A stretch of DNA of 20,251 nucleotides from a virus, in the IMG/VR virus record IMGVR_UViG_3300037586_000737, positions 1-20,251 of that record; one strand, given 5' to 3'. Position 1 is the stretch's first letter, and every line of letters begins with the position of its first letter. The notes beneath the pieces are model-generated. The model saw only the letters and a program-made list of their open reading frames with translations, ran no database searches and was not told the origin of the DNA. Shown piece by piece: positions 6,775 through 20,251 of this stretch. The translations under genes and the position numbers were made by a program.

Positions 6775-6777
6775 ATA

Positions 6778-9504
6778 TTAAAATCCAAGTTTTTCTTTGA
6801 CGGAGTCTTCCACTCTGTCGAGAGCACCCATAATGCCTTGTATGTTGCCATGCTTCCTAGTGAAACGTGCAGCAGAGGCTGTCTTAGCTTTAACTGCGCG
6901 TGCAGCATCCTTCGCAGGACGCTCAACCTGATATTTCCACAAGCGGCTCTCAATCTCATCACGTTGTTCACGGTATAGTTTATGCATAGCAGGGTCCTGA
7001 ATCTTCTTGAGCATCTCATCCACAGGGGCGAACACTCCACGACTAGGCATCTGCCCCTTTGCACCACGGGAGCTATCCATCTTCACTGTCTGATACCCTG
7101 AAGATACGCCTCCAAGATTGATCTGAGGCATCAGGAAGGCCATCTCCCTTTCCTTGGTAGTAGGTGAGATCATCTCTGTGCTTAGTTTAAACTCACGAAG
7201 AAGAAGCTCAGGAGGATAATCTTTACGGATCTGCTCTTGAGCAGCCTCACTTTCTGCGTAGCCCCCTTTCTTTAGGCCAGCCGCCCACTGCTCCACGATA
7301 TTGTTGTAGTGCTCTTTAACATATTCACCAGCCCAGTGATACATCATATCAGTGGCTTCTTCTTGGGTGATATGCATATCGCTCGGTGCAGTGCCTCCTT
7401 CCTCACTGGGAGTAGATGTATCAAAACCATACAGAAGCATCTCTGATCCGCTTCGATCACCTAGCTCAGACATGTATGCAGACACCCTACTTGCATGTAT
7501 CTGGACACCCTGTTCTCCAAGGGAGTCTACTGCGTTCCTGAAGAGCATGACACGTCGTCCATCGCTGCCTTCATATACGCGAGCCATACCGTTAATATGC
7601 TTCTTTGCCTCATTAATATACCAGTCAGGAGATTGCCCTGAACCATGTTCACTGACCAGCTTCGCAATAGCATGCTGCTCGTAAGTTGCCCATGTTATGG
7701 CCTCGTCAGGGGAACCATAGTCTCTAGCGTATGCCTGATGTGCACCAGTGATCACGCTAAAGGAGTCGTTTTTCTTGGTCAGTTTGGCATACACGGCATC
7801 ATACATCTTCTCCGCATCAGATCCTTTCCCTAGCAAAGATCGAGCAGAAGGACCTGCGGCGGCTGCGATTACGGACGTCATGAAATCGTCCTCCGCGATA
7901 CTTGTCCTTGCCTGTGCCACCGACTTAAATACCTTCATGTCTGGATCGGTGGTGTCGCCATTAATCGCCGACCATAAAGGCACGCTGGCGAGGCCATCAT
8001 TGGAAGCCACTAGGACATCCACAGCAGCGCCTGCATTCTCAGGATTATCTTTCACAAGCTGGAGCCCGATGTCGGCACCAATAATAGCATCCCCTCCCAG
8101 CACCAAGCTTCCTGGTCCAAGGGCAGGATCAAGCTGGCCCATGATCTGAGCTTCCGTTCTCGCCTCGCGGCGAAGAGTAGCCTTGTCTGACTCGTCTAAT
8201 GAACCTCCTGCGGCAAGCTTGTCCGTCATGGCCCGTCTGGTGGCATCTGCTGAATGAAACACTCCTGCAGCATGCGGATAGAGTGTCCTTTCTGCGGCAA
8301 TGGCCCCTCCCCTATCGCGGGCATCCTTATATGCCTTCACAATAGTATTACGTGTCGCTAGGACGTTGTTCATGTCACCCCTATCGACCTTGTTGAGGAC
8401 GCTCTTGTCGATCCCAGGAAGATCGGAGATCTTACCTGTAGGATTATCAACCATCCACTGACGTTGCTCTGAGCCGTTCATGGCTGCCTGAATACCATAA
8501 GCTAAGTAGGAAGAATCAAGGTTCTTATCTTCGTCTGAGAGAGGCTTAACTACCTTCTTCGCAGCGAGATATTGCTGCGTAATAGTGTCCATGTTTCTGT
8601 CTGCATATCCAGAGGAAGCGGCCTCGCCACCTGCCTGACCGAAGTCGTTCAATGTTCGATAAACCGACTGACCACTCTCGATGGCCTTAAACTGGATACC
8701 GAGACGGTCAAGCATGGCATTCTGTGCGTCCACGCCCATCCACTTGGCTTCACGCACCTGCTCGGAGGCATCCTTGAGCTGCTGCTGCGCATCTGCAATG
8801 TTCGGGTTACGTTCCTGTGCGAAGCGCATAGCATCCACATAGGCACCCATCTGCTCAGTGCCCTTGGCTACGTAAATTTCTTGCGCCTGTGGATTTGATT
8901 CCGCGAAAGCGCCGCTATGAAAGTAGATCCCCAAGTGATCAGTAATCCCTTCTCCTGTCTTAGACGACACTGAATTGGCCGCGACATCCCTTTCAAGTAT
9001 AGTCCCAGACCGCTCCATTATGACCTCTGCTTCATGGACCATGGCTCCAGTGAGGCTGGCCATGTCATAGTCATGGGCTACGCGATCATAGTCCGTCTTG
9101 AAATGTTCGTTGATAGGATTGGCGTATTCGTCACGAACGGAAGTATCCCCGTCCGTATTGAATTGGACATCGTTGACATGGGCATTCTCAGACCATGCCT
9201 TCATCATCTCCTTGTGCTTTGCCAGCTTACCAAATTCCTTCTGCTTTACGAGAAGATCGCCCTCACGGATCATCTCGTTCCAAGTGGCTTCCATTTTCGC
9301 ACCCTTACGCTTCCTGTTTCCCTCCTGCGTAGCACGATCCTTTCGCTCAAGGTTCCCCGCAATCTCCTTGGTTCCGTGAGCAACCTGACCCAGTGCTCCT
9401 TGTATAGCGCGTGCGCCACCGTCGCCGTGGTCTAGGCCGAGGCCGAAGGAAGCAGCGGAAGCTTGCGTGTCTTTTTGAGTAGAGTGTCCGAGTCGTATAG
9501 CCAT
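6778..9504 (-). CDS. Internal virion (ejection) protein, gp15-like, 908 aa
   Basis: Seen: ATG at 9504 lies 2 bases after the TAA of the 214-aa gene (TAACAATG); stop TAA at 6780-6778. The protein is largely helical and hydrophilic. The first 45 residues are small and glycine/alanine-rich, followed by a strongly basic and acidic helical stretch (ERKDRATQEGNRKRKGAK). The C-terminal 70 residues are again basic and helical, ending RVEDSVKEKLGF. No signal peptide or clear catalytic motif is visible. Known: the T7 gp15 internal core protein (about 747 aa) lies between gp14 and gp16 and lines the periplasmic part of the ejection channel. Size, order and composition fit that role. Assignment rests on position in the block; a different core or tail protein cannot be excluded from sequence alone. 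Confidence 0.75.
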   Translation of the reverse strand: MAIRLGHSTQKDTQASAASFGLGLDHGDGGARAIQGALGQVAHGTKEIAGNLERKDRATQEGNRKRKGAKMEATWNEMIREGDLLVKQKEFGKLAKHKEMMKAWSENAHVNDVQFNTDGDTSVRDEYANPINEHFKTDYDRVAHDYDMASLTGAMVHEAEVIMERSGTILERDVAANSVSSKTGEGITDHLGIYFHSGAFAESNPQAQEIYVAKGTEQMGAYVDAMRFAQERNPNIADAQQQLKDASEQVREAKWMGVDAQNAMLDRLGIQFKAIESGQSVYRTLNDFGQAGGEAASSGYADRNMDTITQQYLAAKKVVKPLSDEDKNLDSSYLAYGIQAAMNGSEQRQWMVDNPTGKISDLPGIDKSVLNKVDRGDMNNVLATRNTIVKAYKDARDRGGAIAAERTLYPHAAGVFHSADATRRAMTDKLAAGGSLDESDKATLRREARTEAQIMGQLDPALGPGSLVLGGDAIIGADIGLQLVKDNPENAGAAVDVLVASNDGLASVPLWSAINGDTTDPDMKVFKSVAQARTSIAEDDFMTSVIAAAAGPSARSLLGKGSDAEKMYDAVYAKLTKKNDSFSVITGAHQAYARDYGSPDEAITWATYEQHAIAKLVSEHGSGQSPDWYINEAKKHINGMARVYEGSDGRRVMLFRNAVDSLGEQGVQIHASRVSAYMSELGDRSGSEMLLYGFDTSTPSEEGGTAPSDMHITQEEATDMMYHWAGEYVKEHYNNIVEQWAAGLKKGGYAESEAAQEQIRKDYPPELLLREFKLSTEMISPTTKEREMAFLMPQINLGGVSSGYQTVKMDSSRGAKGQMPSRGVFAPVDEMLKKIQDPAMHKLYREQRDEIESRLWKYQVERPAKDAARAVKAKTASAARFTRKHGNIQGIMGALDRVEDSVKEKLGF

Positions 9505-9506
9505 TG

Positions 9507-10151
9507 TTATCTATTTTTCCACGCATCCCATGCCTGTGAGCCTGTAGAGGCGCCCTGAGCCACGCCACCGAGGAACGAGGCATAACCGCCGATGCGTGCG
9601 GAGGAAGCCTGCCCTCTGTATGCGGAGGCGCGATTACGTCCTTCCGCGAGAATGAGACCTGTTTGCGTGCGCCCTGTTTCAAGTGCTCGCTTGGAGCGCA
9701 TCTCTGCGAGTTCACCTTCTTTGGAGAATTGATAGCGTTCTTGGGCACCGCCTGAAAGTATTTCCACTTCCTGACGTTCCAGAAGAAGGGCATCCGAGCG
9801 AAGGACATCGTCAAAGCTGTAATCGAAGGTCCCTGTGCGAGCGCCCTTGGCCTCAGCCTTCGCCATGCGCTGCGCCGTCTGTGTGCGCTGGTCCCGTAGT
9901 GCCTTGGAGCGGGTCTGAGCAGAGTCCGCTGCATTGAACTGAGCCACAGAAGCTTGGAACGATTGGTCCCCTGCTTCAGCTACCGCATTGTTCTGGGCGA
10001 TCTGCGCATTGTAGGCAGCCATCTGCTCAGCAGCAGTGGCTTGATTCTCCGCCTGTGCCGCAGCATTCTGGGCACCGAGGTATCCTACCGCGCCAGATGC
10101 GAGGCTAGATACCGCAGATACTGCGAGCATTGTGGTTACTGGGTCTGACAT
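9507..10151 (-). CDS. Internal virion (ejection) protein, gp14-like, 214 aa
   Basis: Seen: ATG at 10151 lies one base after the TAG of the nozzle gene; stop TAA at 9509-9507. The N-terminus has an alanine/glycine-rich hydrophobic helix (about residues 5-28, VTTMLAVSAVSSLASGAVGY), followed by a long alanine/glutamine-rich helix (AQAENQATAAEQMAAYNAQI, residues 33-52). The middle is charged, and a glycine/alanine-rich hydrophobic segment sits near the C-terminus (RIGGYASFLGGVAQGAS). This hydrophobic-helix-first, glutamine-rich layout and the length match T7 gp14 (196 aa), the ejected protein that inserts in the outer membrane. A GGAGG sits about 15 bases upstream, too far for a normal Shine-Dalgarno. 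Confidence 0.82.
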   Translation of the reverse strand: MSDPVTTMLAVSAVSSLASGAVGYLGAQNAAAQAENQATAAEQMAAYNAQIAQNNAVAEAGDQSFQASVAQFNAADSAQTRSKALRDQRTQTAQRMAKAEAKGARTGTFDYSFDDVLRSDALLLERQEVEILSGGAQERYQFSKEGELAEMRSKRALETGRTQTGLILAEGRNRASAYRGQASSARIGGYASFLGGVAQGASTGSQAWDAWKNR

Positions 10152-10152
10152 A

Positions 10153-13100
10153 CTATTTTACTTCGACCTCCGTTACTGCTGAGATGACTGTGAGTGGATA
10201 AGGCTGATCTTGGATAAGCATTGGAACCTTGTCCACTGCATACTGCGATGAAGGCAATGTTTTTTCCTTGGTGAAGCCAGTGAACAGCGGGGGTGATTCT
10301 CCGTCAGGGGCATCATCCAGATGCTTCGTAATATCAAGGGCCCCTTCTTCTGTGAAGCCTTGTTTGAATCCGAGGCTACGGAACAGATAGAACCACTGCT
10401 TCACGTAGCGGGTGATCTGCCCATAGGCATTACCGCCGCGTGTCTCTATGCCGAGTGGGTTCCCCTGAAGCACCCCTGTATAAGGGAGTCCGACCAGAGA
10501 ATACTTGGTAACTGTCACGCCTTCTGGCAGTGTTACACGGCTGTTTAGGACAGGGAGGCACCCGTAGTCCAGACCGTCGATGACCGTTCTCACACAACCT
10601 TCCTCGTCAAGTAGTCTATCTGGTACAGGTATGACTACACTCGGAGTCTCGTGATAGCCTGTATCAGGGTAGCGAGAATATGAATCGAGGAATGCTGCAT
10701 TCGGCTTATAATTATCTTCCCCCGTGTCGATGAAGGACGCGTGCATACGCTCCATGGTACGGAGCCCGTCACGGTCAATGACCGCCCATACCTGATCCTC
10801 GGAAGTCTCTGTGTCCCCTTTAGGAACGACCTCCACCTCCGCGAAAGTACCGTCAGTGGTATGCTCCGCCCATGCGTAGTAGTCATCCTCCTTGCGGTAA
10901 GTGAGTGTAATCAGCCGACCCGCTTCTGTGACAATCCAGAACACAGCATGCGGATTTGCCTGATACGAGAATGAGATGATAGGATCATTGTCGAAAAGAG
11001 TAGGTACCAGTTTCGTAGTGGTCTTCGTATCGAAAGATTGAGACTGGAAATCAAAGATGAACTCAGAGAAGCTTCGGCCACTGATATGCGGGAAGAACAC
11101 TGATGCACCTACGCGCATACCCTGCTGGGTCGAGCCAATAGAGGTCTCTTGCGTGATTCGGATATTTTTCGGAGTAATGGCAGCTGAGAACTCATTGGGT
11201 CTCAGCTGCCACTCGTTCGATTCTGTCCCTATAATCAAGGTGGGACCCGATTCCAACCACCGAATAATTGTAGAGGATGTTCCGAGGGGGTAAGTAATTC
11301 CTGTGGTATCCAATACGGTACCATCAGACTCCACTGTTCGGAAATCACTGTCGTCCTTGGTACTGCTAAGCCATACCAGATTGGGGTCATTCTTGGACCC
11401 TGCATACACTCGTCGCTGTTCGTAAAAGGAAACTGCGACAGGCCAGTTATTGTCGTACCATGCCCCCCATCGATATTCGGTGAACACACCGTTGTTATTG
11501 ATCTCACCCGTAAGGGCGTCCCGTGGAATGTCGGAGAGGACGTCACACGTGGCGCTAGTAGACTGAGTAGAAGTGATGCGAAGAAGCACCCACTTATCAA
11601 CCAAGTTACCAAAGAAATAACGACCCGTGTCGCGGGTGTTGGAGAATACGTTTTTACTGGCATAAAGTGTAGTAGTATGAGAGGCGAGCCCGTCGCGATC
11701 ATTAGTCAGATCGTAGACTGAGACAGTGCCTGTTGTGGCTCGGAGATTGGTGTCCTTCACAACCACCTGAGTCTCGTCCGCTTCAAATACGTCGAACTGC
11801 TTCTGGGTAGACATGTTGGCTACGATGGAACCAGTGGCCGTTCCTGTTATCTCTGCACCATTTTCAAGTCCCTCCGTGATCTGGTAGTCCATGATGAATC
11901 GAGGAGAGCTGCCGCCTTCTTTGAGCTTATAGCGCTCTCGGGGAGTTCCCTCGGGAGCATCCACGCTGAACTCCGTGTATGTGCTCCACTCATATACCTC
12001 ATAGGTGCTTCCTGCTTCATAGTTGGAACTTTTGAGCGTATTGTATATAAAGTCCACTGGATGATCTTCCACACCACGGTAGTCTTTCAGATAGAACCAT
12101 CGGGTAAGACCGTCTTGGGAAGAGAATTCCGAGTCGGTAGGACGAACAGTAGGTTCGCACACGTTCGTAAAGAGCTTATCCCCACCAATACGGACCCATG
12201 CACCGATGTGAGATGTTTCAAAGATAGCTGCATCCGCACGGACATGCCACTTGTCATCAGGAACCCTATCGTTGCTCTGCCACTTGTCGGCACCTGTGCC
12301 TTTTAGTGCAAACAGCCGAACAGAGGGATCTTCTACGTTTACTACAGAATCCACTGGATCAACGTAGCAGGTGGTTCCAGAAGGATCTGGAACGTCTGGA
12401 TTGATTGCGGTTGTCAGGATACGTCCAAGGGCCCATTGGTTGGCTACCTTGTATTCCGTGTAATACGGAACCGTTTCCATGTCGATGATCTCCTGCGCAG
12501 TAAAATTGAAATCCTCTAGTGTAGATGTGAGACGAACCACCTCAACGGAGGGGTCAATTCGCATGACAACATCGGAGGTGTCGATCTTCTGGAAAGGGTG
12601 GGACGTGTAGTCCACCTTGCTGAAAGTCCATGGCGTCAGCCCCTCAGAACCAGCAGAGCCCGCGAACAGTGCGAGATTGCTCTCATCGGATTCTGTGGAA
12701 TACAGGCGAAAATTATCAGGAGCAGGGTCGGTCTCTGTAGAGTACAATGCCACCGAGTCAAAGACCGTATTGGCAGAGAGCTCATACGGCGGGTGGTTCG
12801 TGTGCGTGAACACCATCTTCTCCACTTCGCGTGAATAGCGGACATCTGGAATCTCAGAGTCAAGGTATGGAATATCCACACCATCGACGCCATTCTCACG
12901 AACATAAAGCAACAGGCCGTCGGTAGTATATACATGAAGCAGGCCTTCTGACAATCGCAGGAGGAATCGATTCTCATTGTTAATTGAGAACGAAATCAGC
13001 TTAACATTTCCCTCCACAGAATCCTCGATCCACTCGAACCCTTCCCGATACTTCACGGGACCTTGGATCGACGGTATGAAATTCTCTATACGTTGAAGCC

Positions 13101-13194
13101 CTTTGTTGAATTTATCAACGTCAAGGCGACCACGCATATACGGTCCCATGAGGCCGCCTGTAAAATCTGTGGTGATTGGGTTATATGATGCCAT
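10153..13194 (-). CDS. Tail tube nozzle protein, gp12-like (tail tubular protein B), 1013 aa
   Basis: Seen: I place the start at ATG 13194-13192, giving MASYNPITTDFTGGLMGPYM, which overlaps the end of the adaptor gene by 14 bases. An in-frame start 12 codons further upstream is possible but adds only a basic tail inside the adaptor gene. Residues 1-60 carry the typical opening of podovirus nozzle proteins: a short GG-containing segment, then ENFIPSIQGPVKYREGFEW. The rest is beta-rich with many aromatic, aspartate and threonine residues, in keeping with the beta-propeller fold of T7 gp12. A segment around residues 610-720 (SFYEQRRVYAGSKNDPNLVW, then TESNEWQLRP) is characteristic of this family. 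It is longer than T7 gp12 (794 aa). Role: hexameric nozzle below the adaptor, closing the tail until ejection. Confidence 0.9.
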   Translation of the reverse strand: MASYNPITTDFTGGLMGPYMRGRLDVDKFNKGLQRIENFIPSIQGPVKYREGFEWIEDSVEGNVKLISFSINNENRFLLRLSEGLLHVYTTDGLLLYVRENGVDGVDIPYLDSEIPDVRYSREVEKMVFTHTNHPPYELSANTVFDSVALYSTETDPAPDNFRLYSTESDESNLALFAGSAGSEGLTPWTFSKVDYTSHPFQKIDTSDVVMRIDPSVEVVRLTSTLEDFNFTAQEIIDMETVPYYTEYKVANQWALGRILTTAINPDVPDPSGTTCYVDPVDSVVNVEDPSVRLFALKGTGADKWQSNDRVPDDKWHVRADAAIFETSHIGAWVRIGGDKLFTNVCEPTVRPTDSEFSSQDGLTRWFYLKDYRGVEDHPVDFIYNTLKSSNYEAGSTYEVYEWSTYTEFSVDAPEGTPRERYKLKEGGSSPRFIMDYQITEGLENGAEITGTATGSIVANMSTQKQFDVFEADETQVVVKDTNLRATTGTVSVYDLTNDRDGLASHTTTLYASKNVFSNTRDTGRYFFGNLVDKWVLLRITSTQSTSATCDVLSDIPRDALTGEINNNGVFTEYRWGAWYDNNWPVAVSFYEQRRVYAGSKNDPNLVWLSSTKDDSDFRTVESDGTVLDTTGITYPLGTSSTIIRWLESGPTLIIGTESNEWQLRPNEFSAAITPKNIRITQETSIGSTQQGMRVGASVFFPHISGRSFSEFIFDFQSQSFDTKTTTKLVPTLFDNDPIISFSYQANPHAVFWIVTEAGRLITLTYRKEDDYYAWAEHTTDGTFAEVEVVPKGDTETSEDQVWAVIDRDGLRTMERMHASFIDTGEDNYKPNAAFLDSYSRYPDTGYHETPSVVIPVPDRLLDEEGCVRTVIDGLDYGCLPVLNSRVTLPEGVTVTKYSLVGLPYTGVLQGNPLGIETRGGNAYGQITRYVKQWFYLFRSLGFKQGFTEEGALDITKHLDDAPDGESPPLFTGFTKEKTLPSSQYAVDKVPMLIQDQPYPLTVISAVTEVEVK

Positions 13195-13777
13195 TACCTT
13201 GATGCGCTTCAATAAACTGTGACTGGGCATCGCTCATGTAGGTCTGCGGCGGGCCTTGTCGGGAAAATTGGGATTTAGCATCTTTCAGCTCTTGTCGCCA
13301 AAGGGCATCCATCTCTTGTCGCGTACCTTCTCCTGCGGATAATGGGACGGCAATACGGGCAGCTAAGTAGTATTCAAGAACACGTGTCAGCACCTCTGGC
13401 CACGTGGTAACATCAGTTGTTTCCACGTCTGTATAGCGGAAGTACGTATTCTCCACGTTCGTGTAGACATAGCCGTTCTCAATGGCAAAGTCTGTGAGGA
13501 TGCTACCATCTTCAGTCTCATAGCGCCATGTGCCATTGGCCTTGCTGGAAAAGCGAAAACCATATCGGGAGTCGCCAGAAAAAGTGACGTCAGCTACTTG
13601 GAGCTCACGTTTGCGTGCAACAGGCCAGTCCCATTTTGACGCGATATACTTAATGGCGCGAGCGAGCGCAGGCTTGACCACCTTGGCCTCAGCAGAGGAC
13701 TCATTTAGGTCAAGGATTGTTTCGTGTCCACCGACTTCAGCGACGGCGGCGTTTGCGATCTCAAGCTCGGTTGCCAT
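13181..13777 (-). CDS. Tail adaptor protein, gp11-like (tail tubular protein A), 198 aa
   Basis: Seen: ATG at 13777-13775, TAA at 13183-13181. The N-terminus shows the family pattern: LEIANAAVAEVGG, then a short LNESSAEAKVV segment, a helix with conserved basic residues, and WDWPVARKRELQ, corresponding to the W-x-W/F-A-x-x-R region of gp11-like adaptors. A tyrosine-rich segment follows (YGFRFSSKANGTWRYE), then YYLAARIAVPLS and a C-terminal helix with many glutamines. Length matches T7 gp11 (196 aa). Role: dodecameric adaptor ring between portal and nozzle. Its start codon is in direct contact with the U-tract of an upstream terminator (TTTTTATG), so only readthrough transcripts, or transcripts initiated nearby, could express it. 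It overlaps the nozzle gene, so the two are probably translationally coupled. Confidence 0.9.
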   Translation of the reverse strand: MATELEIANAAVAEVGGHETILDLNESSAEAKVVKPALARAIKYIASKWDWPVARKRELQVADVTFSGDSRYGFRFSSKANGTWRYETEDGSILTDFAIENGYVYTNVENTYFRYTDVETTDVTTWPEVLTRVLEYYLAARIAVPLSAGEGTRQEMDALWRQELKDAKSQFSRQGPPQTYMSDAQSQFIEAHQGNGII

Positions 13778-13816
13778 AAAAAGGGTGAGGGCCCGCCCAT
13801 GCCAAGACGGGCCCTC
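13778..13816 (-). terminator. Intrinsic terminator after the capsid/decoration genes
   Basis: A perfect 9-bp G+C-rich stem pairs 13787-13795 (gagggcccg) with 13808-13816 (cgggccctc) around a 12-base loop. On the minus strand it is followed by ACCC and then five T (13782-13778). It sits 9 bases beyond the decoration gene stop. T7 has its main terminator (T-phi) at the same place, between gene 10 and gene 11. On the plus strand the stem is followed by gggttttgtt, so weak bidirectional action is possible. Confidence 0.85.
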
Positions 13817-13824
13817 GGGTTTTG

Positions 13825-14271
13825 TTAGGTATTAACCACGTACAGGATGTATCCTGTAAGAGTGTCGTCAGCAGCGAGATCACCTACCGAAGTAGTGATG
13901 ATCACTGTCTGGATGCCTTCACCAACTTCCACGCCGCGTTCGCCAGCTGCGGAGAGACCTGCGGCAGCTGTAGCTGCGAGCAAGGCATCCGAGTTGTCGT
14001 CGGTAGGTGCGGATTTGGTTGCGTATCCAATTTCGACTTCCGCAGAATTGCTGACAGAGAGAGAACTGAGAACAGTCTCTACAACGACAGCTTTAGACGG
14101 CAGCTCGACTGCTTCCAGCACTGCACCTGCGGTGACAGCCCCAGTGGCAGTGTAGGAGAAACGCTTGATGCGAACGCGAGCACCGTCATCGACGGGGCTG
14201 AGCGGATTGTGGCCCTGACCACGAACTTGAGTAAGCTCGGTCGAGGCGTCGGAGTAAACGATACTAGCCAT
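13825..14271 (-). CDS. Probable head decoration or minor capsid protein, 148 aa
   Basis: Seen: ATG at 14271, TAA at 13827-13825, 31 bases after the capsid stop. The protein is rich in alanine, valine, threonine and serine and almost free of cysteine and aromatic residues. Segments such as FSYTATGAVTAGAVLEAVEL, then KAVVVETVLSSLSVSNSAEV, and a closing LTGYILYVVNT give a beta-sandwich impression. Known: small proteins with this YTATGAxTAG...ILYVV pattern are often encoded just after the major capsid gene in tailed phages and annotated as structural or decoration proteins. Role inferred from composition and position: capsid surface decoration or cement. The leader ends CATAAAATATT-ATG with no Shine-Dalgarno, and resembles the capsid and fibre leaders. 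Confidence 0.7.
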   Translation of the reverse strand: MASIVYSDASTELTQVRGQGHNPLSPVDDGARVRIKRFSYTATGAVTAGAVLEAVELPSKAVVVETVLSSLSVSNSAEVEIGYATKSAPTDDNSDALLAATAAAGLSAAGERGVEVGEGIQTVIITTSVGDLAADDTLTGYILYVVNT

Positions 14272-14302
14272 AATATTTTATGATATTGGGTTAAGGATGA
14301 GC

Positions 14303-15319
14303 TTACGCCTCTGTGCAGCGGATTTCACCAGCAACTTCACCCCACATGCGGGAAGTGCCGATGGTCTGCTTGTAGTAGATGTAAGGAGCTTTCTTCTTAC
14401 CAGACAGGCGCCAGATATCACCAACCAGCTCTTGGCCAATTGTCAATTTCTGTGCTTGTGGAAGCGAGACACGGATGCGGCGCTCGTCACCCACAAGTGG
14501 GATACGCTCGCTCATCTTGAAGTTGAAACCAAGGATATTGGTTGGATTACCGTCTGCAAGACTCTTCTTGATAGAGTAGTCTGCATTGATGATCTCGTCG
14601 AACTGCAAGAGCTCTTCCCACTGGTACGATGTCATCACACAGTCAAGCTGAGTGTTCTCGTCGATAGCTTCGAGGCGGAGCATCGTGGTGCGGATCGCCT
14701 TGAGTTTATCGATTGTGAGGCCGTATGTTCCAGGAGTACCCGAAAGGGTGAAGTTGGAACCGACGGAGGCACCCTCGTAATTACCGCTCTTGAGTGTATA
14801 TCGGCCAGCTGTTGCGGCAATCTTGTTTGAAGAGCCGTTGCTGACCTCACCGACGGTGATCGTGGTGCTGTCGAGGTCATCAGGTGCCACGCAGTATTCA
14901 ATTACTGTGTCACCAGACTTACCTGTGTATGCGGGAGCGTAGTAGCCTTCGTTGATGATGTCATCGCGCTTACGCTTACCAGAGGCAAGCATGGAAGTGC
15001 TGTAAGGATTCTTCGGGTCAGTGATGACGCGCATGAGGTCCTTCTCGTCGATGATCTTACCCAAGTCGTAAGACTTGAGACCGATGCGACGACGATCGTG
15101 AGGGATCTCAGATACAGGATTGTCACCATAACGGGTGTTATCCTCCTGCATTTCTTCGGCTTCACCGATACGGTCCCAATACTGGTATTCGGACGCTTGA
15201 GATTCATGTTCAACAAGAGGGTCGAGCTTCGACTCTGTTTGCTGGAACGCTTTTTGGAAACCTTCGCGAAACTGATTCACGTAATTGGTTGCAATGGATT
15301 CAGGGACTCCTGGGTTCAT
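14303..15319 (-). CDS. Major capsid protein, 338 aa
   Basis: Seen: I choose ATG 15319-15317 (MNPGVPESIATNYVNQF). An upstream in-frame GTG (15355) would add LYEQLLLNYFI inside the structured leader and is unlikely. The N-terminal helix is polar and glutamine/glutamate-rich (REGFQKAFQQTESKLDPLVE), as in HK97-fold capsids. A conserved-looking RRRIGLKSYDLGKIIDEKDL follows at about residues 75-95; later come the beta-rich insertion (residues 140-195) and LKAIRTTMLRLEAIDENTQL, QWEELLQFDEI and ILGFNFKMSERIP, typical of podovirus capsid proteins that lie downstream of Bbp19-like and scaffold genes. Length fits (T7 gp10A is 344 aa). The leader just before the start is very A+T-rich (TTAAATTATTTTATT-ATG). 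A terminator upstream and another after the next gene imply its own promoter. I see no obvious frameshift extension like T7 10B. Confidence 0.88.
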   Translation of the reverse strand: MNPGVPESIATNYVNQFREGFQKAFQQTESKLDPLVEHESQASEYQYWDRIGEAEEMQEDNTRYGDNPVSEIPHDRRRIGLKSYDLGKIIDEKDLMRVITDPKNPYSTSMLASGKRKRDDIINEGYYAPAYTGKSGDTVIEYCVAPDDLDSTTITVGEVSNGSSNKIAATAGRYTLKSGNYEGASVGSNFTLSGTPGTYGLTIDKLKAIRTTMLRLEAIDENTQLDCVMTSYQWEELLQFDEIINADYSIKKSLADGNPTNILGFNFKMSERIPLVGDERRIRVSLPQAQKLTIGQELVGDIWRLSGKKKAPYIYYKQTIGTSRMWGEVAGEIRCTEA

Positions 15320-15448
15320 AATAAAATAATTTAATAGAAGTTGCTCGTAGAGCACCGTGCTCTGCGAATGTGTTTGTTTCGAGGAGCTGCCCTTTCGGAC
15401 TCTTCTAGTCTTACGTTACCAGCGGCTGATACAGCTTTCCAGAGACCC
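15320..15448 (-). promoter_or_regulatory. Capsid gene leader with several small dyads
   Basis: This is the only sizeable non-coding stretch in the window, between the scaffold terminator and the capsid start. It contains, on the minus strand: GCTG-TAT-CAGC (435-425 of 15xxx); a GACT-N5-AGTC dyad (15398-15410); an overlapping GUCC-GAAA-GGGC hairpin with a GNRA-type loop (15389-15400); an 11-base arm dyad centred on 15356; and GCTC-TAC-GAGC, which competes with that dyad. It ends in an A+T-only stretch before the ATG. I see no confident -35/-10 pair or T7-type promoter. Since the upstream terminator should block much transcription, a promoter for capsid is expected here, possibly for a phage RNA polymerase. 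Confidence 0.45.
15345..15367. promoter_or_regulatory. 23-bp inverted repeat in the capsid leader
   Basis: The sequence tcgtagagcaccgtgctctgcga is a near-perfect dyad: 11-base arms around a single central C at 15356, with one T/G mismatch. A DNA-binding dimer site or an mRNA hairpin (AGAGC-ACGGU-GCUCU in RNA) are both possible. It lies about 30 bases before the capsid start codon. No protein or known family of operator is recognised. Confidence 0.5.
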
Positions 15449-15482
15449 AAAAAAGGGCTGTCTCTATAGAGGAGACAGCCCT
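15449..15482 (-). terminator. Strong intrinsic terminator between scaffold and capsid genes
   Basis: A perfect 11-bp stem pairs 15454-15464 (agggctgtctc) with 15472-15482 (gagacagccct) around a 7-base loop. On the minus strand it is followed by a run of six T (15454-15449). Another run of T precedes it, giving the A-tract/stem/U-tract form in both orientations. It lies 26 bases after the scaffold stop codon. It would reduce transcription into the capsid gene unless a promoter lies between it and the capsid start. Confidence 0.88.
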
Positions 15483-15508
15483 AAAAAGATCACGGAGTCA
15501 ACCGTAGA

Positions 15509-16456
15509 TTATGCTTTGGGGTGAAGTTTTTGATAAAGAGCGGTACGCTGCTTCAACATGTCCTCCCGCTTCAACTTGTCCGCGATGGACAAAGCATTGG
15601 GGTCGGTCATCAAAAGTTCAGCGTTCTGCGTCTCGAAGTCTTTAATCTGCGCCTGAACGCCTGCCACAGTGTCCCCTGCGAATCCACCTCCCTGTCGGCC
15701 ACCGACCATGCCAGCGTCCTGTACAAGAGGCGCCAGTGTATGGAACAGCTTCATGATCCCTGGGTGGTTCTCCACAATAGGAGACCATGCTACAAGGTCG
15801 CGAAGTTCAGGCACCTTCTCGGCCAAGATCTCAAATGCCTCGTTCGCAGACTTGTGGTTGAGCTCATAGTTGTCCGCCCACTCGTTCTGGAGTGCGCGTT
15901 GCTGCGCGGTCACAGATTCATTGATCTGCTCTGAGAGGGTACCTTCCGCACCGACGGATCGATTGGCCCAGATTTCACCGAGCTGCTTCGCCTGCTGCGG
16001 GGAAAGGTTCAGTTGGTCAGCCACCGTGCGAAGTTCTGTGACATCTCCCTCAGAGAGACTGTGCTTCACGACTTCCTCGCCCTTTGTGACGTCATAGCTC
16101 TCCTCAAAGACATAGCCATCAGTTGTCTCTGGACGGATGTTCGAGTAGAAGTTCGTCCAGTCGTCGTCGCCCCAGTTCTCATTGGGCGCTTCGAGTCGCT
16201 TTTTGCCAAGGGCAGATTGTGCATTGATTGTCTGGTCAACCAATGAGCCAAAGGTCTTGGTGTCCTTGAACATCCCAAGCTCCTGTTGTTCTGCGGGCAA
16301 TGAGCCAACGAACGCGCGGAAGGTGTCCTCGGACGAGAAGTCCATGGTTCCTCCTGCGGGAGGGGTTCCTTCAGCAGGAGGTGTTCCACCTCCTCCGCCA
16401 ATACCCCCTGCTGGGGGCTCTTCTTCAAATAGTGGTGTGCGTGGTCTTAGTAGCAT
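15509..16456 (-). CDS. Capsid assembly scaffold protein, 315 aa
   Basis: Seen: ATG at 16456, one base after the TAA of the Bbp19-like gene; stop TAA at 15511-15509. The N-terminus (residues 5-37) is a low-complexity glutamate/proline/glycine stretch (GGIGGGGGTPPAEGTPPAGG). An internal ATG at residue 38 (MDFSSEDTF) is a possible alternative start. The rest is acidic and helical: LVDQTINAQSALGKKRLEAP, NLSPQQAKQLGEIW, and NYELNHKSANEAFEIL. These are typical of podovirus scaffold proteins. The C-terminus is basic and short-helical (REDMLKQRTALYQKLHPKA), as expected for a tail that contacts capsid subunits. It lies directly before the capsid gene, as T7 gene 9 does. This is one of the few genes with a Shine-Dalgarno-like GAGGAA at a usable distance. 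Confidence 0.88.
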   Translation of the reverse strand: MLLRPRTPLFEEEPPAGGIGGGGGTPPAEGTPPAGGTMDFSSEDTFRAFVGSLPAEQQELGMFKDTKTFGSLVDQTINAQSALGKKRLEAPNENWGDDDWTNFYSNIRPETTDGYVFEESYDVTKGEEVVKHSLSEGDVTELRTVADQLNLSPQQAKQLGEIWANRSVGAEGTLSEQINESVTAQQRALQNEWADNYELNHKSANEAFEILAEKVPELRDLVAWSPIVENHPGIMKLFHTLAPLVQDAGMVGGRQGGGFAGDTVAGVQAQIKDFETQNAELLMTDPNALSIADKLKREDMLKQRTALYQKLHPKA

Positions 16457-16457
16457 G

Positions 16458-16724
16458 TTATTGTTCCTCTTCTATGATGTTGATTAGATGCTGCGGATCG
16501 TCTTTCCCCAGCAGGTGTAGGTATGACATCGCAAGGCGACGAGTCGCCTCCGCTGCCGTGATTTCATAAGGGTCGAGGCTGAACCGCGAACGGGTCACGC
16601 CACAATCCTTGAGAAATTGCTTGAAGAAGCGATCCCCGTGAGGGGTGTCCAAGATTGCTTGGAGGTCCTCCCGCATCTGGCGGCGCTTCTTAAGTCTATC
16701 GAGTGTGTTTAGAATCTTTCCCAT
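16458..16724 (-). CDS. Bbp19-like small structural protein, 88 aa
   Basis: Seen: ATG 16724-16722 overlaps the portal stop by one base (TAATG); TAA at 16460-16458. The pattern ILDTPHGDRFFKQFLKDCGV, then RSRFSLDPYEITAAEATRRL and a closing helix (LLGKDDPQHLINIIEEEQ), matches the Bbp19 family named after Bordetella phage BPP-1. These small helical proteins are found between portal and capsid genes in many podoviruses and have the conserved G-R-F...CGV...F..DP......GRR layout. Its exact role in the virion is not established. Translational coupling to the portal suggests it is needed in fixed proportion during head assembly. I recognise the family by motif memory only. Confidence 0.7.
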   Translation of the reverse strand: MGKILNTLDRLKKRRQMREDLQAILDTPHGDRFFKQFLKDCGVTRSRFSLDPYEITAAEATRRLAMSYLHLLGKDDPQHLINIIEEEQ

Positions 16725-18358
16725 TAAAGCTGTAGCATCTGGCCAATTCCTTCAGGATCGGTCGCCTTGGCATCGGCTACGTCCTTGGCGGCTCCCGCCA
16801 TTCCTGGAATATTATCCATGGTCTGCTGCTGCTGCTCCGCCTCTGCACGCTGTTCGCGTACAGCATTCACATCATCCTTGGTCTTAACGATACGGCGCGT
16901 GACGTTACGTAAGCGGCTGATTTCAGCGAAGAGCTCATTGTCGTCAATATTGTCCATGATCTCAGGTTTCGCCTGAGCCAGTGGAATGATGTCCTGAAGC
17001 ATCGCAGAGATGTTCGACATCCCAGAAGAATATTGTGCCTGTGCAGCGGGGCTAGTGTAGACAATCTCCATATCATGACCCTCCAGAGTGGACGGTACAG
17101 GAGGGAGCTTGTCGGACTTATCCAAGAAATCAAACTGTGCCTCGACACAGGGGGACAGGAACTCATTCTCCTGACGGGACAGGAGCGGTCCGAGCTGTTG
17201 AAGCATCTGTCCGCGCTCGTCCTGAATCTCAAGAATTGTCTGTCGTTCCTTCTTCTGGTCACGGATAATCTGATCCACGAAGAACGCCTTCACGATAGTG
17301 TCGCGATCCTGATTAATCATCTCCTGTGTCAGGTTCGGCTGGCTCCCTGAGAGCACAGGCTCTGGTGCAGGGGACCCTGGTTCGCGCCAGATCATCTGGC
17401 GGCTACCATAGCTGAACGGAAGCATGATTGTATCCTCTTCCGCGGTGAGTGGCGGTGCATTGGATATCTCCGCGCTCTTGATCAGCTCCTTGCGCATCTT
17501 GTTCACCATCTGGATAGTAGACAGACAGGTCATGGCAGGGGAGCGTCCGTATACCTCGCCAGGCAACTTGGCCCAGCGAGGAACGATGAACGGGAAATAG
17601 CTAAGTGTGCCTTCTTGAAGAACATCTTTCAGTTCTTCACACCAGTATGTAAATTGATATGGCTTGTTGGCGCCAATGGTTCCGCCCTTCTTCGCACGAA
17701 CATCACGGGACGGCTCAACGGAATAGACCAAGCTGTACGTGCGATCACCCTGACTAGGATCAAAGCCCTCGGCATTCACAATATCAGGGAACGCCTGAAT
17801 CATGGCCTTGGTGCGCAGTTTCCTGATGTAGAACATCGTATCCACGTCGCCGTCATCGCTGGTATCAAACAGACCCATGGACAATGGGACCGCGGTATAT
17901 TGGGAACCCCGCGCAGAGCGGTTGTTGTAGAGAATCGCTGTACCGTAGGAACCCTGATCCATGTAGACCTCATGCCCTGCTTCATAGAACCCTGTCTTGG
18001 GCAGCGCAAAGCTATGGCTGATCATATCAGAGACCTGCTCAAGGTAGATCAGCTCCTCGTCTGTGAGCTCAGAACTCGGCTTGCCCGCGGGCTTCAGGTA
18101 CGCCCAACGTGAGGACTTCGGCATCAAGTAGCTGCACATACCGTTGGCAAACATCTGATTCGCCCATACAGCAGTATCGTCGAACTTGTACTTGGAGCCG
18201 TCCTCCTGAGCCATGCCCCCCTGCTTCGACGAATTGTCAAAAGCCGAACCATTTGGGCGAACCAGCCGCTGGACGGACTCCAGCACAGGCTGAATCCCAG
18301 AACGGAGCATGCGCAACTCTTCCAGCCTATCGGCCAGACGGAGTCGCTCGGGGGTCAT
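16724..18358 (-). CDS. Portal (head-to-tail connector) protein, gp8-like, 544 aa
   Basis: Seen: stop TAA at 16726-16724. I choose ATG 18358 (MTPERLRLADRLEEL), 7 bases after the upstream stop; a GTG at 18376 would add MASNFQ and overlap the upstream gene. Family features: LEELRMLRSGIQPVLESVQR with a following PNG; QMFANGMCSYLMPKSSRWAY; DQGSYGTAILYNNRSARGSQ; PFIVPRWAKLPGEVYGRSPA; and QEMINQDRDTIVKAFFVDQI. Together these mark the phage head-to-tail connector family that includes T7 gp8 (536 aa). The C-terminal part is helical and glutamine-rich (REQRAEAEQQQQTMDNIPGM). Role: dodecameric ring at one vertex, the nucleus for scaffold/capsid assembly, the dock for terminase, and later the seat of the tail adaptor. 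Confidence 0.95.
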   Translation of the reverse strand: MTPERLRLADRLEELRMLRSGIQPVLESVQRLVRPNGSAFDNSSKQGGMAQEDGSKYKFDDTAVWANQMFANGMCSYLMPKSSRWAYLKPAGKPSSELTDEELIYLEQVSDMISHSFALPKTGFYEAGHEVYMDQGSYGTAILYNNRSARGSQYTAVPLSMGLFDTSDDGDVDTMFYIRKLRTKAMIQAFPDIVNAEGFDPSQGDRTYSLVYSVEPSRDVRAKKGGTIGANKPYQFTYWCEELKDVLQEGTLSYFPFIVPRWAKLPGEVYGRSPAMTCLSTIQMVNKMRKELIKSAEISNAPPLTAEEDTIMLPFSYGSRQMIWREPGSPAPEPVLSGSQPNLTQEMINQDRDTIVKAFFVDQIIRDQKKERQTILEIQDERGQMLQQLGPLLSRQENEFLSPCVEAQFDFLDKSDKLPPVPSTLEGHDMEIVYTSPAAQAQYSSGMSNISAMLQDIIPLAQAKPEIMDNIDDNELFAEISRLRNVTRRIVKTKDDVNAVREQRAEAEQQQQTMDNIPGMAGAAKDVADAKATDPEGIGQMLQL

Positions 18359-18365
18359 TTGAAAA

Positions 18366-18572
18366 TTAGAGGCCACTTCCTAGAGATTTCTTCTTTTTGT
18401 CCGCCGTTGTGCTGGCGGGTGTTGTCTTCTTGGCCCGCTGGACCTGAGTAGGGTTCACCACCTTGGCCGCTTTCTTCGCCTGCTTAATAGGCTGCCGTGC
18501 CACTGGCGCTGGAGGAGGAGGTGGAGGAGGAGGTGGAGGGGGCGGTTTCGGTCTACTTGGTTTTGATGCCAT
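18366..18572 (-). CDS. Small polyproline and lysine-rich protein, 68 aa
   Basis: Seen: ATG at 18572 (MASKPSRPK) overlaps the 123-aa gene by 20 bases; TAA at 18368-18366. Twelve consecutive prolines follow Lys9, then APVARQP, and a strongly basic C-terminal half (KQAKKAAK, QRAKKTT, DKKKKSLGSGL). No membrane segment is visible and it is likely disordered. T7 gene 7.3, also just before the portal gene, encodes a small lysine-rich protein ending in a KKSL-type serine/glycine tail, so this could be a positional analogue (a tail-assembly or adsorption-linked minor virion protein). That link is inference. The proline run would need EF-P for efficient translation. Frame conservation, overlap with its neighbour and consistent coding make it likely real. 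Confidence 0.65.
   Translation of the reverse strand: MASKPSRPKPPPPPPPPPPPPAPVARQPIKQAKKAAKVVNPTQVQRAKKTTPASTTADKKKKSLGSGL
18510..18545 (-). repeat. Polyproline codon microsatellite
   Basis: Twelve proline codons in a row, built largely of a repeated 12-base CCTCCTCCTCCA unit (aggaggaggtgg on the plus strand). The run is prone to slip in steps of 3 or 12 bases. The mRNA strand is CCUCC-rich, like the anti-Shine-Dalgarno of 16S rRNA, while the plus strand looks like a run of false Shine-Dalgarno sites with no gene behind it. Confidence 0.9.
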
Positions 18573-18924
18573 GGCGATTCATTAGGTTGCGAAGTCTCTT
18601 GGTCGGCAATAAACGCATTGCCCTTTTCTTATCCTTTGCATGGCGGGAAAACCCAACATAGTCAAGGTGATAAGGCATCAACCGAGCAAAAAGTTCCCCT
18701 GCGTTCTCATCGGTGGAACTCGCGTACACCACGTACCAGTATGGTTCCCGCTTCCGCGGGTCATTGGAACAGGGGTCCCATCGGGTCTCCTCATGCGCCA
18801 ATAAAATGTAGCCTGGACCAAAGAACGTGTACCGCTTTGCCTCGGGATAGGAGCTGATATAATGGTCCAGCAACTCAACGAAGTCCTCCCCGAAGCTACG
18901 GTACAGGAACACTGCCCTGTCCAT
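18553..18924 (-). CDS. Unassigned small phage protein, 123 aa
   Basis: Seen: ATG at 18924 (MDRAVFLYRS), 35 bases after the terminase stop; TAG at 18555-18553. The body is compact and aromatic-rich: KRYTFFGPGYILLAHEE, then EPYWYVVYASSTDENAGELF, then ARLMPYHLDYVGFSRHAKD, and a basic C-terminus with PTKRLRNLMNRHGI. The alternation of beta-like (YWYVVYAS) and helical segments gives a faint impression of an acetyltransferase-like fold, as proposed for T7 gp13-type proteins, but no acetyl-CoA binding loop is clear. I do not assign a function. Its place between terminase and portal suggests a virion-assembly role. The leader is C-rich (GACCTGACCCCC-ATG) with no Shine-Dalgarno. Confidence 0.75.
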   Translation of the reverse strand: MDRAVFLYRSFGEDFVELLDHYISSYPEAKRYTFFGPGYILLAHEETRWDPCSNDPRKREPYWYVVYASSTDENAGELFARLMPYHLDYVGFSRHAKDKKRAMRLLPTKRLRNLMNRHGIKTK

Positions 18925-18959
18925 GGGGGTCAGGTCGGTGGGTGGGGCGACTGGGGACG

Positions 18960-20251
18960 TTATAGAGATACGTCCACCTCCTTGTATTGGGAATTCTTCC
19001 GAGTGCTGGCATCATTCTCGCCCTTCGTTTGTTTCAGTCCGCAAGCAAGAGTTCTGAACGCGTCCGCGCCGTGCGAGGCAGCGTCATGCACAGGGGTCTT
19101 CTTGAACACGTTCCGTGCTGAGTCGAACTCCTTATGGTAACTTTTCAAGTGCTCAAGGCCCATATGACACTCTGCTTCACTGAACCAGCAGGTCGGCAGG
19201 ACCTGACGCACCGCTTCAATCCCGTCCTGCACACTCATCCGCTTCACCTTGGTAAAGCGCAGACCAAGCTTCCGCGCAGTCTCCAAACGGGAACGCCCTG
19301 TTCCCATCTCACGCACAGCAATATCATGCGGCGCGTAATGCTTCCCGTAGCTCGCATCGTTCAAGATGGCCCATCGGTCCAGCTCACGTGCGTAGTAAGG
19401 GAGCCCTTCCCCCGAGTTCTCCAGATAGTTCACAATTCTTAGCTCCCGCCCAAACATCTGGAAGAACCAGACACTGGTCGAGTCATCCATCCCGAGGTCC
19501 CATGCGGTATGGACAGGGAGGGACGGCTCCACTGGAATAGTCGGAACAATCTGCTCCTTCGCATACAGTCGAGACATGATCGGACCATAATAAGCCCCTT
19601 CAATCGGCGTGTGGAACGAGCACATGAACTCCGACTGGAACCGTGCTTCATTGTTGCCCTCCTTCCGCGCCGTGCGCAGATCCTCTGGCGTAATAGCCTT
19701 CGTGTCCAATGCCCCAAGGTGGCTGGCAAACCAGTTCTTATCGGCCTGTGCACGCAGAAGCAGATCATAGAAATGATTCTGACCACGGGGCGTCCCATTG
19801 AACAGGGCCCATCCACCATTCTCCGCAAGGATCGGGTTCGTCAGGACCCATGCTTGAGGATCGCTCAGGCTGAACTCCGAGAACACAATACCCACAGGAT
19901 TGATCCCCACCAACTTATCAGGATTGTCCGCCCCGAGCAGTTGGATGATTGATCCATTGGATAGGGTTAAGCTCATCTCCTGTTCCGATTTACGGACGAC
20001 CAGCTCCCTAGGAATGAAGTCCAAGAACTTCCGACCATCCCCGTCCTGCCCCTGCCAGATAATACGCCTGATCTGATTATTGAATGGACCAATATACAGA
20101 TACAGCCCCTTCCTCTGGAGCGCCTTGATCGCCATGATATTGATGGACGTCAGGTCCTTCCCCGCACGCCTGTGCCATGCAACCACGGCCCGTAGGCCCC
20201 GCTTGTCTTGGCACATGTATTTCGTGAACGGTAACTGGTAGGATCGCGGTA
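18960..20251 (-). CDS. terL: Terminase large subunit (5' end cut by window edge)
   Basis: Seen: stop TAA at 18962-18960; the frame runs through the right edge, giving about 429 residues. Methionine at 20216 is internal, since readable sequence (RSYQLPFTKY) precedes it. Counting from that methionine: Walker A AWHRRAGKD at 13-21; Walker B-like GIVFSEF at 109-115; the coupling motif LFNGTPRGQNHFYD at 138-151; nuclease acidic residues in TAWDLGMDD (D240, D244/245), in APHDIAV (D298) and in HGADAFR (D385). Two departures from the textbook are GKD in place of GKT/S, and serine in place of the first Walker B aspartate; both occur in phage terminases of this type. Role: ATP-driven packaging motor docked on the portal, and nuclease that cuts the concatemer. 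Only a short N-terminal segment is missing. No small subunit is in view. Confidence 0.95.
   Translation of the reverse strand, partial: PRSYQLPFTKYMCQDKRGLRAVVAWHRRAGKDLTSINIMAIKALQRKGLYLYIGPFNNQIRRIIWQGQDGDGRKFLDFIPRELVVRKSEQEMSLTLSNGSIIQLLGADNPDKLVGINPVGIVFSEFSLSDPQAWVLTNPILAENGGWALFNGTPRGQNHFYDLLLRAQADKNWFASHLGALDTKAITPEDLRTARKEGNNEARFQSEFMCSFHTPIEGAYYGPIMSRLYAKEQIVPTIPVEPSLPVHTAWDLGMDDSTSVWFFQMFGRELRIVNYLENSGEGLPYYARELDRWAILNDASYGKHYAPHDIAVREMGTGRSRLETARKLGLRFTKVKRMSVQDGIEAVRQVLPTCWFSEAECHMGLEHLKSYHKEFDSARNVFKKTPVHDAASHGADAFRTLACGLKQTKGENDASTRKNSQYKEVDVSL

Follow-up and report, generated by a model that had tools for sequence, protein, structure and literature searches.

In phage T7, the capsid unit consists of promoter phi10, gene 10 and terminator T-phi. 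The podophage capsid locus described here is built alike, having a capsid gene with a probable promoter of its own in front, a possibly leaky terminator behind and tail genes downstream; unlike T7, it has a promoter of the host sigma70 type, a front terminator that overlaps this promoter and a conserved, structured leader. A second parallel is the HK022 put RNA (putL and putR), a protein-free antiterminator made of compact, bulged stem-loops directly behind a promoter, which suppresses pausing and termination and contacts the β′ zinc-binding domain of RNA polymerase; putL is paired from the third base of its transcript (PMC9378689). Put and the capsid leader have in common a compact RNA behind a promoter (which one type of carrier phage, L062, lacks), transcription by host RNA polymerase, and terminators downstream. 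They differ in that put serves early operons, whereas the capsid leader stands in a late capsid operon and carries two mirrored identical modules. Descent from put was considered and dropped for want of any sequence or module similarity, and HK022 from 24 to 40.7 kb held no paired modules and no match at putL. The comparison, therefore, indicates a possible mode of action and not a family.

Two further classes bear a likeness. Stabilisers of the ompA type, cited in PMC3997798, have the 5′ end of an abundant mRNA in a stem, as in the marine clade of our leader, but the capsid leader has conserved sequence in two internal loops and is not 5′-terminal in all members. Attenuator leaders and riboswitches likewise combine a structured leader with a terminator before the gene (here in the L062 type) and with mutually exclusive hairpins (here a terminator and the first leader hairpin, H1); in the window's type, however, the choice would depend on where the transcript starts and not on a known ligand. 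A literature search returned no description of the capsid-leader RNA, the published list of 224 candidate RNAs (PMC5737381) being outside that comparison. In Rfam 15, the window and eight relatives gave 0 matches at or above the gathering cut-off, and the sub-threshold matches were terminator-like. The capsid leader is a new, undescribed RNA family, unusual in that terminator, promoter and leader overlap.

Anatomy of the capsid leader

The window is a 20,251-base IMG/VR viral record, and its minus strand encodes a podophage virion block of terminase, portal, scaffold/protease-like protein, major capsid protein, a small protein, and tail and internal virion proteins. The 43-kb record G001 is 99.9% identical to the window over 16 kb. 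This identity holds over 3966-20251 and falls abruptly to 86% over 3532-3900, within a giant ORF (1219-6774), which suggests that 3532-3966 marks a boundary where two close phages recombined. Low-complexity repetitive reading frames (e.g., YTADQTAHHYTADQTAHHYT) lie at 193-399 and 700-888, towards the low-numbered end of the window. The preliminary description had singled out 15320-15448 as a structured, non-coding interval directly upstream of the major capsid gene, among genes otherwise closely packed. The interval proved to be a real feature, but it cuts the element in half, since the element reaches to about 15465 and its promoter to 15501. On the minus strand, 15501-15377 holds a probable sigma70-like promoter, an intrinsic terminator and a four-hairpin RNA (15465-15381), all overlapping. 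The features of the region, all on the minus strand, are as follows.

15496-15501, minus: −35 box, TTGACT; 67 of 67 distinct loci have TTGAC[A/T] at 35-38 nt upstream of the H1 stem
15472-15478, minus: weak −10 region, CTGTCT (17-bp spacing) or TGTCTC (18-bp spacing), in the 5′ arm of the terminator
15449-15482, minus: intrinsic terminator of the upstream (scaffold) transcript, from a terminator scan; AGGGCTGTCTC, CTCTATA, GAGACAGCCCT, then a T-run
15441-15465, minus: RNA hairpin H1, AGAGA-CAG-CCC-UUUUUU-GGG-UCUCU; first base at the predicted transcription start
15425-15435, minus: RNA hairpin H2, GCUG-UAU-CAGC; 97% canonical pairs where present
15406-15421, minus: RNA hairpin H3, UGGU-AACGUAAG-ACUA; conserved CG in the loop, all cells paired
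15381-15405, minus: RNA hairpin H4, GAAGAG-UCC-GAAA-GGG-CAG-CUCCUC, followed by GAAA at 15380-15377
15345-15367, minus: hairpin H5, a 23-bp dyad, clade-specific; L062-type phages have an intrinsic terminator in its place
14303-15319, minus: major capsid gene (phrog_3437), ATG at 15319
13825-14271, minus: small gene 3′ of the capsid gene
13777-13816, minus: terminator-like hairpin behind the capsid and small genes (hairpin 13816-13787), GAGGGCCCGTCTTGGCATGGGCGGGCCCTC and ACCCTTTTT, running into the ATG of the tail gene at 13777

Across the family, H1 consists of an outer helix running to GG(G), a NAG bulge (mostly UAG or CAG), an inner helix that begins with C-G, a U-rich, UUCG or GNRA loop, and a 3′ strand that returns as G-UCC. 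The general form of H2 is GCUU/AAGC, and that of H4 is an outer helix, UCC-GNNA-GGG and a second NAG bulge. H1 and H4 thus share one internal loop, made of a UCC/GGG helix, the NAG bulge and a C-G helix, as mirror images of each other. From H4 to the capsid ATG the distance varies between 36 and 63 nt across types, in no fixed relation to the ribosome site, which is not hidden by any structure. Between the predicted start and the capsid ATG there is no other ATG that could open an upstream reading frame. In the marine clades, the capsid start codon lacks a Shine-Dalgarno sequence and is preceded instead by an AU-rich stretch with recurring AACUUCUA (window 15320-15340 and its equivalents); VP2, ZP6 and the L062-type leaders have a Shine-Dalgarno sequence before the capsid gene.

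The preliminary description saw no obvious bacterial promoter, a view that comparison speaks against. We segmented 67 distinct loci automatically, and in each of them a −35 box lies 35-38 nt upstream of the five-pair H1 stem (62 TTGACA and 5 TTGACT, the window among the latter). A −10-like TA[T/C][T/C]C mostly follows at 17 bp, which places the first base of H1 at the expected start, about 15465 in the window; these −10 sequences, mostly TATCTA, TATTCC, TATTCG or TACTCA, are weak, but their position is conserved. The window itself has a good −35 and a poor −10 and was absent from the list of a consensus scan, so that its promoter rests on the relatives; a bacterial-type promoter is probably there. 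Sigma70-type boxes also stand upstream of the distant leaders (VP2, K300, ZP6 and contigs L209, L211, L214, L221 and L222), with full or near-full consensus promoters at the same place in VP2, ZP6 and L222. In VP2, the −10 lies in the loop of a long inverted repeat without a T-run. The earlier suggestion of a phage-specific promoter found no support, given these boxes and the ten larger G001 genes outside the virion block, which include helicases, a primase-like protein and a family A DNA polymerase and among which no RNA polymerase was found. A PF00940 profile search of seven records gave no match either, a weak result, since control genomes gave none. The motif, which had been proposed for a search elsewhere in the genome, occurs once per genome checked and is not repeated.

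The terminator shares its bases with H1. In 65 of the 67 loci, a hairpin of at least 9 bp has as its 3′ arm the first half of H1 and as its T-run the H1 loop, and in most of these 65 the −10 lies within the 5′ arm. H1 (15465-15441) and the terminator hairpin (15482-15454) are, therefore, a conserved, mutually exclusive pair. Transcripts that start at the promoter could form H1 because they lack the 5′ arm of the terminator, whereas transcripts arriving from upstream would form the terminator. The overlap is common but not universal: in L014, promoter and terminator are apart and H1 is still kept, with a UUCG loop; VP2 and L222 retain H1 with no terminator overlapping it; and in VP2 and L211, H1 lies ∼20 nt inside the transcript.

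Conservation and distribution of the RNA

The folding energy of the window is unexceptional (z = −1.17, with 26 of 200 shuffles as good), and most members fold no better than shuffles; the evidence for a structured RNA is, therefore, comparison with relatives. A capsid protein search gave 55 loci, down to 47% identity, and nearly all of those reaching far enough upstream had a recognisable leader. A DNA pattern made from the most conserved part of the leader (GTCCGNNAGGGYAGCTNNNYGAA) matched at least 119 viral stretches. Counting all loci, with some contigs counted twice, 164 matches had a capsid gene of the same family directly downstream; only three viral matches had none, and each of these was cut by a contig end.

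Among 81 distinct sequences, 94% of the predicted pairs were canonical, with stem limits set partly by complementarity and 14 distant members placed by hand. We scored covariation with our own R-scape-like script against a tree-preserving null. Of the 28 pairs, 5 show significant covariation (E < 0.05), and no column pair outside the predicted structure does. These are pairs 3-5 of the H1 outer helix (E = 2.5e-5, 3.5e-4 and 0.045), pair 2 of the H1 inner helix (E = 0.011) and pair 6 of a longer form of H3 (E = 0.025). The strongest covariation can be seen by eye beside invariant sequence, as in CATGGGA/TCCCATG, ATGTGGG/TCCATGT, TTGAGG/TCTCAA and CTAGG/TCTAG. A separate count on a covariance-model alignment, of a kind biased towards its own structure, gave 95.6% paired compared with 86.9% in shuffles and 29-59% in slid controls, and 135 double changes compared with 36. 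The G-U pairs, invariant in H4 (UCC/GGG is identical in 80 of 80 sequences) and frequent in H1, speak for an RNA rather than a DNA site. We are highly confident of a conserved RNA family that starts at its promoter. Comparison establishes the RNA family and how it folds, the tie to the capsid gene, the constant spacing from the promoter, the bases shared with the terminator and the terminators downstream.

The structured, novel 5′ untranslated region foreseen in the preliminary description is thus present, with the covariation it had asked for, but its details fared unevenly. The proposed GUCC-GAAA-GGGC stem is real and conserved as the inner helix of H4. The 23-bp dyad exists, as H5, in the window's clade and several others and is missing in AT-rich clades. 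GACT/AGTC retains three of its four pairs in most relatives through conserved sequence and is lost in distant ones, and GCTC-TAC-GAGC was seen in the closest relatives only; because neither is conserved, the two exclusive pairs built on them are unsupported as switches. Long-range pairing of UAGAAG (before H4) with CUUCUA (before the ATG) was also tried; it fits the window and some clades and is lost in others.

The element precedes the capsid gene in dozens of marine phages as well as in known Vibrio and Alteromonas phages. Searching isolated phages with the leader by blastn gave no useful match, and VP2 and ZP6 were reached through capsid gene similarity. Vibrio phages VP2 and K300 and contigs L209, L211, L214 and L221 have both modules within 150 nt in their capsid leaders (0 of 400 shuffles for each). 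The leader of Alteromonas phage ZP6 has two H1-type modules, and that of L222 has H1 and an H4 variant with UUG; divergent versions in L115, L202 and L217 were judged by eye only. We did not see the element in HTVC010P, in five other pelagiphages or in the leaders of L210, L215, L220 and L223. G001, G003 and VP2 each have a single module pair in front of the capsid gene, and G001 has one further, chance-like match elsewhere. VP2 (L239, 5850-5975) and ZP6 (L240, 5750-5830) are both annotated with a PurZ-type adenylosuccinate (diaminopurine) synthetase. Pattern matches in bacterial genomes look like chance, with the exception of one contig of the phage group (L069/L192, NZ_NZMB01000002.1) filed in a metagenome-assembled genome of the alphaproteobacterium Sneathiella, a weak hint at hosts. 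The distant carriers, whose hosts include Vibrio and Alteromonas, have capsid proteins only 21-30% identical to that of the window, yet nearly constant modules; the partner is, therefore, likelier to be a conserved component of the cell than a phage protein.

Downstream terminators and possible roles of the RNA

Most marine relatives examined have an 11-14 bp terminator-like hairpin with a T-run 8-16 nt past the capsid stop; in some it follows the next small gene instead. VP2, L211 and L222 share this arrangement, and ZP6, L209 and L221 have strong hairpins behind the capsid gene. The post-capsid hairpin runs straight into the start of the tail gene with no TTGAC box between, so that there is no room for a promoter and the tail genes should depend on read-through. 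In L029 and its relatives, the hairpin (GTAGCCTCCCC...GGGGGAGGCTAC) lies ∼8 nt past the capsid stop, and a conserved TCC precedes the T-run, which is unusual for an intrinsic terminator. Only a single clade has complementarity between the 3′ side of this hairpin and GGGUAGCC of H1. Circularisation of the mRNA through GGCUACUCC of the post-capsid hairpin and GGGUAGCC was rejected, the pairing being lost in the clade with GGGGGUACUCC. Phages of the L062 type (IMG/VR contigs L062, L075 and L115) have canonical terminators on either side of the capsid gene, the one in front lying after H4. No promoter is visible at their element, and their H1 overlaps the likely stop codon of the upstream gene; in most types there is no terminator between element and gene.

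We favour, with a probability of about 0.4, a reading of these sequences in which the leader is a cis-acting antitermination or anti-pausing RNA of the capsid-tail transcription unit, over a stabiliser or a feedback site. Transcripts of the scaffold gene would arrive at the intrinsic terminator and stop. Host RNA polymerase would restart at the sigma70-type promoter, whose −10 lies mostly inside the terminator 5′ arm; the new RNA, free of that arm, would fold its first bases as H1 and then form H2-H4 upstream of the capsid start codon. Comparison supports the order of events to this point. The mirrored NAG-bulge modules of H1 and H4 would then act in cis on the polymerase that transcribed them, which would pass the post-capsid terminator (and in the L062 type also the pre-capsid one). 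Such read-through would express the genes for tail and internal virion proteins, before which no promoter is visible. We infer start, termination and read-through in cells, as well as the molecular target, from sequence.

An antitermination or anti-pausing RNA fits because the element precedes terminators that must be passed: the terminator-like hairpins that follow the capsid gene, where no promoter is visible, and, in the L062 type, the terminator before it. Covariation, the invariant internal loops, the fixed promoter spacing and the shared terminator bases also count in its favour, as do the lack of a phage RNA polymerase among the genes examined, the consensus sigma70 promoters of VP2, ZP6 and L222, the constancy of the modules among diverged capsid proteins, and the variable distance from H4 to the capsid ATG. 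Against it, complete read-through would make the post-capsid terminator useless, and this terminator may be leaky and set the capsid-to-tail ratio unaided; the link of the element to a single gene would suit feedback control as well; and there is no similarity to put, while the window's own −10 is weak.

H1 could serve instead to protect the message, by pairing the mRNA 5′ end and blocking decay from it, so that, with the 3′ end closed by the terminator hairpin, the capsid mRNA would be abundant and long-lived. The capsid message must indeed be abundant, H1 starts at the predicted +1 in 67 of 67 loci, and the stem-stabilised mRNAs cited in PMC3997798, ompA among them, offer precedents. This role asks for no particular hairpin, yet the sequence of two internal loops hardly varies; moreover, H1 is internal to the transcripts of VP2 and L211, and in the L062 type the element has no promoter and is followed by a terminator. 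We consider a stabiliser unlikely. Less likely again is attenuation by feedback or by a ligand, in which the mirrored modules, when bound by the capsid protein, another protein or a small molecule, would adjust how the capsid gene is terminated or translated. The strict link to that gene, the suitability of two equal modules for a dimer or bivalent ligand, and the L062-type terminator after the element speak for it, but the modules do not change with the capsid proteins, which diverge to 21-30% identity, no structure covers the ribosome site, and most types lack a terminator between element and gene.

Insulation by the overlapping terminator and promoter, with the RNA as a by-product of the overlap, would account for the 65 of 67 loci in which terminator and H1 coincide, and in vitro a polymerase that a terminator has released can slide to a promoter close by and start again (PMC6978380). 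We find it improbable as the whole explanation, given that H2-H4 lie outside the overlap and are equally conserved and that H1 persists in L014, whose terminator and promoter are separate, as well as in VP2 and L222, which have no terminator overlapping it. Recycling of polymerase from the terminator into the promoter that overlaps it may be an added benefit. The poorest candidate is a ribozyme, or a site of RNA processing, that cuts the capsid message free of the upstream transcript: the position of a structured RNA between two late genes and the overlap of H1 with the upstream stop codon in the L062 type would suit it, but Rfam has no match and a promoter at the edge of the element makes cleavage unnecessary. 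A hammerhead was examined specifically and rejected, as the CUGANGA and GAAA core positions vary across relatives (e.g., CGAGCG in L014).

Meaning for marine podophages

This undescribed RNA family is attached to the gene that common marine podophages, and cultured phages of Vibrio and Alteromonas, express most heavily; because of these cultured members, it can be tested at the bench now, and the L062-type group offers the best natural test of antitermination against attenuation. More tentatively, we propose jointly that the leaders may represent a widespread new class of nascent RNA, in phages of alpha- and gammaproteobacteria, in which two mirrored NAG modules act on host RNA polymerase and let it pass terminators, and in which one DNA segment is terminator, promoter and first RNA module at once. 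If the leader does act on RNA polymerase, it would be a second, unrelated route to protein-free antitermination beside HK022 put; if not, the locus would still be an unusually compact DNA segment that is at once terminator, promoter and structured mRNA 5′ end.
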